In this document: one piece after another, positions 49,707 through 52,479 of the stretch
Position numbering within the stretch: the first letter of the stretch is position 1
Layout: every line of letters begins with the position of its first letter
Assembly: GCF_013839445.1 (NCBI RefSeq)
Contig: NZ_JACDIT010000004.1
Span: 186,001-250,000, forward strand
Source of the DNA: Chthonobacter albigriseus
GTDB taxonomy: Bacteria; Pseudomonadota; Alphaproteobacteria; Rhizobiales; Pleomorphomonadaceae
Direction of reading: 5' to 3'
Length of the DNA stretch: 64,000 nt
Notes under the pieces: model-generated
The model's database searches: none
Seen by the model: only the letters and a program-made list of their open reading frames with translations
What the model was told of the DNA's origin: nothing
Position numbers and translations under genes: made by a program

Positions 49707-50870
49707 TCAGCGCGCCGGCAGGTCCCCGATCTCCCACCCCCGCTTCGTCTCGGCTACGAAGGCCGCGTAGCGCTGTGCCTCGATGGCGTCCCGGATGCCC
49801 TGCATCAGCGTCTGGTAGTAGGCGACGTTCGCCCAGGTCAGCAGCATTGCGCCCAGCGTTTCGCCGGTCCGCACGAGGTGGTGGAGGTAGGCCCGACTGT
49901 AGTCCCGCGCCGCCGGACACGCGCTTTCCTCGTCGAGCGGCCGCGGATCCTCGGCGTGCCTGGCGTTCTTCAGGTTGATCTTGCCGAAGCGCGTGTAGGC
50001 CAGTCCGTGCCGCCCGGCCCGCGTCGGCATCACGCAGTCGAACTGGTCGATGCCGCGCGCGACGCTCTCCACGATGTCGTCGGGTGTGCCGACGCCCATG
50101 AGGTAGCGGGGCTTGTCTTCCGGCAGCACCGGCGTGGTGATCCGCAGCATCTCCAGCATCACCGCCTGTGGCTCTCCGACGGCCAGCCCGCCGACGGAGT
50201 ATCCTTCGAACGGGATCTCCTGGAGCCCTGTCGCGCTCGCGACCCGGAGCGCAGGCACATCGCCGCCCTGGACGATGCCATAGAGCCCCTGCCCTTTCTG
50301 CGGCCCGCGCATCAGCTCGAACTGTTGCCGGCTCCGCTCTGCCCAGCGCAGGCTGAGGCGCATGCCGCGCTCCACCTCGCCGGGATCGGCCGGCAGGCGC
50401 ACGCACTCGTCGAGCTGCATCTGGATGTCCGAACCGAGGAGGCCCTGGATCTCGATCGAGCGCTCCGGCGTCAGTTCGTAACGCCGCCCGTCGATGTGGC
50501 TCTGGAAGGTGACTCCCTTCTCGTCCAGCTTGCGCAGCTGCGCCAGCGACATCACCTGGAAGCCGCCGGAATCGGTGAGGATCGTGTGCGGCCACGTGGA
50601 GAAGCGGTGCAGCCCGCCCAGCGCCGCGACACGCTCCGCACCGGGCCTCAGCATCAGGTGGTAGGTGTTGCCGAGAACCACGTCCGCGCCCGTCGCGCGG
50701 ACATCGTCCATGAACATAGCCTTCACGGTGCCCTGCGTGCCCACCGGCATGAAGGCCGGGGTGCGCACCACGCCGTGCGGCGTCGTGATCTCGCCGCGCC
50801 GCGCCATGCCGTCGGTGGCGATCAGGCGGAAGGAAAAGGGCGGCTTGTCTTCGGTCGAGGGGCTGTTCAA
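49707..50870 (-). CDS. tgt: tRNA-guanine transglycosylase lacking most zinc ligands
   Basis: A 387-residue TIM-barrel enzyme that swaps guanine 34 of tRNA for preQ1 on the way to queuosine. The active site is intact: D100 in [33 protein letters not shown], and the nucleophile D278 in [12 protein letters not shown]. The structural zinc site is not: compared with the Zymomonas enzyme (Cys, Cys, Cys, His), this protein has S316, C318, A321 and A347 in [16 protein letters not shown] and MLLTWANV. It lies in the conserved queA-tgt neighbourhood with a META gene between them, so it is likely functional. Confidence 0.95.
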
Positions 50871-50940: not shown

Positions 50941-51345
50941 TCAGCGTCCGGCCTCGATAACGACGGCGCCGCTCGCGTCTCGCAGCAACAGCCGCCCGTT
51001 CTCGATTGCCCAGGTCTTCACCTGCCGCGTCAGGGCCTGGAGGAACACCCGCTCCGCCTCGTTGGCGGCCGCATCCAGGCAGGCCATCTTGGTGGCGGCC
51101 ATCGGTCCGAAGTCCAGCCGGTCCGCCTGCACCCGCATCGGCCCCGAAAAGCGATTGCAGCCCGAGAATCCGGAAACCTTTCCCTCGGCGAAGTTCAGCG
51201 TAGGCGCCCGGTCTCCTGCCGCCACGAGAGCGCCGGCGACCGCCGACACCGTCCACGGACCGCCGGCAAGGCCACCGTCTGGCCCGGCATGAACGCATCC
51301 CGTCATCAGGGTCACCGCGAGAAGTCCGAGGAAGATCAGCCGCAT
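50941..51345 (-). CDS. META-domain lipoprotein (HslJ-like)
   Basis: A 134-residue lipoprotein. The signal peptide ends in the lipobox LMTGC (Cys17). The META domain follows, with GGPWTVSAVAG, the signature FSGCNRFSGPMR and MAATKMACLD (two cysteines that may pair), then FLQAL. META domains occur in HslJ, a heat-inducible outer-membrane protein linked to novobiocin tolerance; the role here is unknown. It sits between queA and tgt on the same strand (33 and 70 bp gaps), where related genomes usually have the two Q-pathway genes adjacent. Confidence 0.85.
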   Translation of the reverse strand: MRLIFLGLLAVTLMTGCVHAGPDGGLAGGPWTVSAVAGALVAAGDRAPTLNFAEGKVSGFSGCNRFSGPMRVQADRLDFGPMAATKMACLDAAANEAERVFLQALTRQVKTWAIENGRLLLRDASGAVVIEAGR

Positions 51346-51378: not shown

Positions 51379-52479
51379 CTAACCTGCCGCGCCTTCGCAT
51401 GGAAACAGCAGCGAAGCATCGCCATAGGAGTAGAATCGGTATCCCGAGGCGATCGCATGCGCATAGGCGGCACGCATCGTCTCCAGGCCGGAAAAGGCGG
51501 ACACCAGCATGAACAGGGTCGACTTCGGCAGGTGGAAGTTGGTCATCAAGACGTCCACCGCCCGGAACCGATAGCCAGGCGTGATGAAGATCTCGGTCGG
51601 CCCGGCGAACGGACGGATGATCCCGTCCTCGCCCGTGGCGCTCTCCAGCAATCGCAGCGACGTGGTGCCGACGGCGACGATCCGCCCGCCGCGCGCCCGG
51701 ACCGCATTCAGCGCAGCCGCGGTTTCCGTCGAAACGGACCCGATCTCGGCGTGCATCCTGTGCTCCGCCGTATCCTCGGCCTTGACCGGAAGGAACGTGC
51801 CGGCGCCGACATGCAATGTCACGAAGTGGCGCTCCACGCCTCGCGCGTCGAGGGCGTCGAACAAGCGTGGCGTGAAGTGCAGGCCCGCAGTCGGGGCAGC
51901 AACCGCCCCCTCCTCCCGCGCATAGATGGTCTGGTAGTCCGCCCGGTCGCGCTCGTCCTCCGGCCGCTTGGCCGCAATGTAAGGCGGCAGCGGAATATGC
52001 CCGACCGCCGCGATGGCCTCGTCGAGAGCCGGACCGGTCAGGTCGAAGGCGAACGTCACGTCGCCCTCCTCGCCCTTCTCGGCCACCGAACCCTCCAGCC
52101 TGCCGAGCAGGCAGACCATCCCGCCGGACTCCGCGCCATCCCCGAAACGGATGCGATCGCCCGGCTTCAGCTTCCTGGCGCCCTTGACGAACGCCTTCCA
52201 GCGATCGGCTGCAACGCGCATGTGCAGGGTGGCGGAGAACCGGACGGGCTCGACGCCGTCACGAAGGCGAACGCCCTCCAACTGCGCAGGGATCACCCGG
52301 GTGTCGTTGAACACCAGCGCATCGCCGGGCCGCAGCAGGTCGGCAAGGTCGCCGACGCCGCGATCTTCGAGCGTCCTTCCGGGGCGAACGACGAGCATGC
52401 GTGCTGCATCGCGCGGATCCGCCGGGCGAAGGGCAATCCGTTCCGACGGAAGCTCGAAGTCAAAACAGGACACGCGCAT
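51379..52479 (-). CDS. queA: S-adenosylmethionine:tRNA ribosyltransferase-isomerase
   Basis: A 366-residue enzyme that adds the epoxycyclopentandiol ring from SAM to preQ1-tRNA, the step after Tgt. Family blocks: [59 protein letters not shown] (in part), [23 protein letters not shown], and the end [11 protein letters not shown]. Complete and of usual length. Adjacent genes tgt (same pathway) and, upstream, the inserted glycosyltransferase. Confidence 0.95.

Follow-up and report, generated by a model that had tools for sequence, protein, structure and literature searches.

The tRNA guanosine(34) transglycosylase (Tgt) encoded in the window, by which we mean the whole stretch of 64,000 nucleotides of Chthonobacter albigriseus analysed here (NZ_JACDIT010000004.1, positions 186,001 to 250,000), has three of its four zinc ligands replaced, and we consider it, with a probability of about 0.8, to be an ordinary, active, preQ1-inserting enzyme in which packing took the place of a structural zinc site that underwent decay in the distant past. 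The loss of the site looks like an old and tolerated change that is fixed in the window's order as sampled and is shared well beyond this organism; it seems that a whole order of well-studied bacteria carries out queuosine (Q) modification with a Tgt that has no zinc site. No new pathway is revealed, the enzyme being a standard one with an old change. A literature search on Tgt and zinc in alphaproteobacteria or Caulobacter found no paper, and a zinc-free Tgt is not described in the literature searched, with most subscription journals lying outside that search.

The window Tgt scores 457 bits against NCBIfam TIGR00430, passing the curated equivalog cut-off of 306.75, and 489.7 bits against PF01702 (cut-off 26.3), and its residues 7-374 align with Z. 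mobilis Tgt (1ozm) at 472 bits in phmmer. It is the single Tgt match in the genome, which is 99.62% complete, and a second Tgt was rejected on this ground. The likeness to the Tgts of Z. mobilis (1pud, 1ozm) and E. coli comprises 58% identity, an rmsd of 1.4 to 1ozm (Z. mobilis TGT is also the best Foldseek match of the model), the catalytic and base-binding residues and the aromatic positions of the dimer; the difference lies in the zinc ligands. PMC6165067 presents bacterial Tgt as a zinc protein, and so does the title of Chong et al. 1995; the site of 1ozm is C/C/C/H. The CxCxxC plus His ligand set of zinc-type Tgts (E. coli, Z. mobilis) is absent from the window Tgt, as judged by the phmmer alignment (Table 1). 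All four ligand-position codons fall within 49829-49925, and the claim of the original prediction that S316, A321 and A347 are substitutions, with C318 alone retained, was confirmed to the residue. It had also placed queA next door to tgt, which holds for proximity, but an ORF with a META domain stands between the two genes; the label of this ORF as a probable lipoprotein gene comes from a reading of its N-terminus.

Table 1. Genes around tgt and codons of the residues discussed, in window coordinates
Feature	Position	Strand	Remarks
tgt, tRNA guanosine(34) transglycosylase	49707..50870	-	387 aa, TTG start; profile matches
META-domain (HslJ-like) probable lipoprotein gene	50941..51345	-	PF03724, 92.3 bits
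queA, enzyme after Tgt in the pathway	51379..52479	-	NF001140, 461 bits (cut-off 324)
A347 codon	49830..49832	-	opposite Z. mobilis H349 (zinc His), 1ozm alignment
A321 codon	49908..49910	-	opposite Z. mobilis C323 (third zinc Cys), 1ozm alignment
C318 codon	49917..49919	-	sole ligand kept; opposite Z. mobilis C320, 1ozm alignment
S316 codon	49923..49925	-	opposite Z. mobilis C318 (first zinc Cys), 1ozm alignment
His288 codon	50007-50009		residue 288

Sequencing error or chance is excluded as the source of these substitutions, because the full CxCxxC...H site was present in none of the 59 same-order Tgts read, including the two in that sample nearest to the window Tgt (87% and 81% identity), and a local or recent loss in the window genome is likewise rejected by the order survey. 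This survey covered 61 genomes, with a tgt match in 58 (one of them, in G344, a short fragment only), and 57 were read; two further same-order genomes of the class sample complete the 59. One ligand was kept in 50 of these Tgts, none in 7 and two in 2. The class survey comprised 289 genomes with a Tgt match in 270, and 191 loci from 188 genomes were read, the lower-scoring ones being left unread. Among the 187 loci read from other orders of the class, the site was intact in 146, both outer cysteines were lost in 36 (L243 included) and 5 were altered otherwise. The L243 protein, in genome G027, is a second, divergent Tgt-like protein with 35% identity to the window Tgt, and most of its zinc loop is absent. 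Outside the class, where 62 of the 88 matching genomes of the phylum sample were read, the site was intact in 62 of 62 Tgts; in two of these an insertion had to be read by eye. The Tgts of L130, L147, L382 and L388 have an insertion and retain CxCxxC; the truncated one of L303 gave no ligand reading.

We also used L195, a Tgt of the same order, to scan named genomes, taking the best 80 of 592 candidates, 79 of which were readable. Within these best 80, all 44 readable loci of Hyphomicrobiales (NCBI ranks) were altered and 32 of the 35 others were intact, the three altered ones being a Parvularculaceae MAG, a Sphingomonadales MAG and an unclassified proteobacterial MAG; the nearest named Tgt among them was that of Pleomorphomonas diazotrophica (Hyphomicrobiales), at 84% identity. 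These named relatives point to Hyphomicrobiales as the window's order. In the Sphingomonadales MAG (L317), which belongs to the order of Zymomonas, residues of the zinc loop are deleted and the His is kept. The full site is thus missing from the Tgts of Sinorhizobium, Rhizobium, Mesorhizobium, Bradyrhizobium, Methylorubrum and Pleomorphomonas as it is from the window Tgt; they differ from it in that the letters at 316, 321 and 347 vary, as does 318 in a few, and that some Rhizobium and Agrobacterium keep His347 where the window has A347. Across the same-order Tgts read, both outer cysteines and usually the His are replaced, residue 316 being mostly Ser, residue 321 mostly Ala, Ser or Thr and residue 347 mostly Asn, Ala, Ile or Val. 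C318 is retained as Cys in 128 of the 143 Tgts without the outer cysteine pair, and the only reading that we offer for this strict retention is that it may be a packing residue. Bradyrhizobium-type Tgts (L298, L296, L201, L375) combine W318 with I347 (SWTI, SWAI) and, going by these letters, have repacked the site in another way.

The prediction that all active-site residues are kept was upheld. D100, D154, Q201, G228 and D278, which we take to be catalytic or base-binding positions, are present in the window Tgt, as is G227-G228-L229-A230-V231. When the 112 Tgts without the outer cysteines and the His were compared within a 329-row alignment, all 112 had D100, S101, D154, C156, Q201, G227, G228, L229, V231 and D278 unchanged, and R284, R287, Y328, H331, N68, T45 and K50 as well. 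The homodimer of Z. mobilis Tgt has an aromatic hot spot of F92, W326, Y330 and H333, according to an excerpt of PMC5395182. At the equivalent positions the window Tgt carries F90, Y324, Y328 and H331, and at residue level the hot spot is judged to be preserved; the exchange of Trp for Tyr at Y324 concerns a position where Tyr is the commonest residue in both the altered and the intact group.

The zinc-binding subdomain is predicted to fold normally. AlphaFold2 gave the window Tgt a mean pLDDT of 93.4, with residues 301-350 at 95-98, and a zinc-bearing control, the Tgt of Pseudooceanicola (L300), 92.7 overall with 95-98 over its residues 291-350. AlphaFold models zinc sites confidently without metal, so that the pLDDT is weak evidence, meaning that no disorder is predicted and not that the site is empty.

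For the activity of a Tgt with such a site we turn to relatives, and that the window Tgt inserts preQ1 at G34 can be said only by analogy with papers on S. meliloti and Bartonella henselae. In S. meliloti 1021, the phenotypes of tgt mutants, which are phenotypic evidence, are not rescued by preQ1, and a queA mutant has little symbiotic defect; the species possesses queC and queD (all from passages of PMC3568095). By these phenotypes S. meliloti needs tgt genetically; the ligands were read in another strain, Ak57, whose Tgt is S-C-T-N. One record, CP090106.1 (L250), bears the title S. meliloti pSymB; with a length of 3.7 Mb and both tgt and coaD on it, it may be a mislabelled chromosome. B. henselae belongs to the same order as the window genome, and its Tgt achieved partial complementation in E. 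coli, in a queDF tgt deletion strain supplied with preQ1 (a section of PMC11570991); the main text of that paper (Quaiyum et al. 2024) does not contain the word 'zinc'. B. henselae keeps only tgt and the transporter; the window genome also has queF and queA. Two Bartonella-type Tgts that we read, one from L271, a MAG locus with the title uncultured Bartonella, the other (L371) 78% identical to it, are both S-C-A-N, so that, by analogy, the published B. henselae Tgt is very probably also without the site. The L371 locus comes from a 1.5 Mb same-order genome, has tgt without queA and shows 35% G+C in the 8 kb read.

A decaying Tgt, that is a relic with little activity, could also have lost its structural ligands; the genome has no QueC, and tgt decay is reported in Bartonella quintana in part of PMC11570991. 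We hold this to be very improbable for the window Tgt, given that 1) the dN/dS of tgt is 0.14-0.20 (window vs. four relatives); 2) the catalytic residues are invariant in the 112 fully altered Tgts; 3) tgt is matched in 58/61 genomes of the order, in one only as a fragment; 4) QueA, QueF and YhhQ are retained; and 5) tgt is genetically needed in S. meliloti (phenotypes in the excerpt of PMC3568095).

We looked in the alignment for other residues that might supply the ligands, comparing column by column the 112 fully altered Tgts with 135 intact Tgts that share at least 57% identity with that of the window, and found no substitute ligand that tracks the loss. Continued binding of zinc or another metal through C318 and further residues, e.g. 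H288, D323 or a neighbouring subunit, would fit the retention of C318 (128/143) and three observations in the fully altered Tgts: the enrichment of H288, which shows the strongest difference outside the three ligand columns (His in 107 of the 112 vs. 14 of 186 that keep at least one outer cysteine), that of Asp at 323 (70% vs. 11% of intact Tgts), and the occurrence of Cys at 143 (26 of the 112). However, over about 10 independent pairs H288 goes with the loss in about 2 and is unchanged in about 8, and it lies outside the zinc loop in the conserved, tRNA-contacting PTRxGRHG stretch (R287-H288). Residue 347 is variable in altered Tgts (N, A, I, V, S or T). At no column does the share of Cys in the fully altered Tgts exceed that in the intact ones by more than 40 points (112 vs. 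135 Tgts), and the window Tgt has Gly at 143. Despite its enrichment, H288 does not go along with independent losses and was dropped as a substitute ligand, and a metal still bound in the window Tgt seems improbable to us. His288 sits beside the conserved R287 and might be a lineage marker close to the tRNA-binding stretch.

Since no substitute ligand follows the loss, an empty, packed site is the reading that we prefer from these alignments. The proposal that the subdomain must be stabilised in another way thus survives as to the missing ligands, the lack of a substitute and the normal predicted fold, but not as to the parallel that was drawn with zinc-free paralogues of ribosomal proteins. 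These zinc-independent paralogues (AltRPs, RpmE2) resemble the window Tgt in being homologues without a structural zinc site; in contrast, the window genome, with one Tgt match, has no zinc-bearing partner and hence no switchable pair, and the loss is fixed in the order sampled and occurs in several other alphaproteobacterial lineages.

The history of the loss was approached with a FastTree tree of 329 of the 333 Tgt rows, unrooted, without the phylum loci and with the ligand columns removed; short rows, L243 (the divergent second Tgt) and L337 (a duplicate) were left out. The state of the cysteine pair changes at least 13 times by parsimony on this one unrooted tree, where gain and loss are indistinguishable by count, so that the change of the outer cysteines seems to have occurred more than once in Alphaproteobacteria. 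The altered rows fall mostly into clades of the window's order or of named Hyphomicrobiales, with smaller groups elsewhere in the class. His347 is replaced in 112 of the 143 rows without the cysteine pair vs. 3 of the 186 rows that have not lost it, which suggests two steps, the outer cysteines probably having gone first and the His later. Tgts of the type S-C-S-H were found in Agrobacterium tumefaciens UMA610 and Rhizobium ruizarguesonis in the scan of named genomes, and in the L031 Tgt the third cysteine alone is lost. In a pairwise test on the tree, with about 10 independent pairs differing in the cysteine pair, the His differs in the same way in about 2.3, in the opposite way in 0.2 and not at all in 7.5, which is not significant; the two-step order is thus suggested by few independent events.

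Under the reading that we prefer, with decay of the site and replacement by packing, an ancestor would have lost both outer cysteines to give S-x-C-x-x-S, with the His kept as in Agrobacterium and Rhizobium, and the His would later have been replaced by cavity-filling residues. Packing around the retained C318 and P319 would hold the segment of loop and helix at about 316-335 together with the long helix that bears residue 347. The aromatic patch of the dimer (F90, Y324, Y328, H331) would thereby stay where it is, and preQ1 would be exchanged for G34 by a homodimer that needs no zinc. The living intermediates, with the outer cysteines gone and the His kept, form a natural series for the loss of a metal site in which fold and dimer survive. 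For Tgts of this order, neither homology modelling nor the design of inhibitors should take zinc for granted. The zinc ligands of E. coli Tgt were studied by mutagenesis by Chong et al. in 1995, reportedly with loss of activity, and removal of the ligands need therefore not be harmless in every background.

The preQ1 in the window genome would probably come from imported preQ0 via YhhQ and QueF. QueF is present (QueF-II, 141.9 bits, cut-off 86.9), as is the precursor transporter YhhQ (TIGR00697, 103.5 bits, cut-off 50.95), which stays under the cut-off of the narrower PRK11212. QueC was not found by profile search, its sole candidate being MnmA, which was rejected (PF06508, 22.5 bits with neighbours at a cut-off of 22, 20.8 for the whole protein, vs. 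425 bits as MnmA). The only PTPS hit (L247:1483-1890) was rejected as QueD at a QueD score of 34.6 vs. a cut-off of 89.25; it passes the PTPS Pfam (74.9 vs. 22.4), shows the motif HGAT at a position where QueD has HGH, and adjoins ORFs read as glycosyltransferase and sugar-nucleotide genes, which also counted against QueD. It is possibly a repurposed PTPS. QueF and the transporter kept, with no QueC and no convincing QueD, fit preQ0 salvage, and from these matches the genome looks like a preQ0 salvager with QueF, transporter, Tgt and QueA (L254, L255, L249, L247). QueC and QueD are zinc proteins, and QueF, QueA and YhhQ are not recognised as zinc enzymes; with no QueC and apparent salvage of preQ0, the retained branch may be zinc-free or poor in zinc proteins. 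The FolE that the genome keeps belongs to the zinc-dependent GTP cyclohydrolase I family, and no match to FolE2 was found. The full Q pathway is reported for 64% of the alphaproteobacterial species analysed in PMC11570991, so that a zinc-free branch need not hold for the whole order.

The original suggestion that loss of the site frees the Q pathway from zinc supply therefore keeps some ground, in that the kept salvage branch lacks QueC and may have few zinc proteins, but it is unproven. We put forward as doubtful, though possible, that in Hyphomicrobiales salvaging preQ0 or preQ1 the whole retained branch (YhhQ, QueF, Tgt, QueA) is zinc-free, in which case Q would be high in zinc starvation and would fall with a zinc Tgt; if true, wobble decoding would be uncoupled from zinc supply in these salvagers. 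It is unlikely, in our estimate, that the site was lost as zinc sparing selected under zinc shortage and not by neutral replacement. Such selection would agree with the cysteine-pair changes (at least 13, seemingly repeated in Alphaproteobacteria, gain and loss not being distinguished) and with a retained salvage branch that has no recognised zinc enzyme besides the lost Tgt site. The zinc-economy reading is weakened, however, by the fixation of the loss in every same-order Tgt read (n = 59), by the lack of a zinc-bearing paralogue in the genome, by FolE being kept where FolE2 was not found, and by the loss being common to species that make Q de novo (as far as the excerpt of PMC3568095 describes them).
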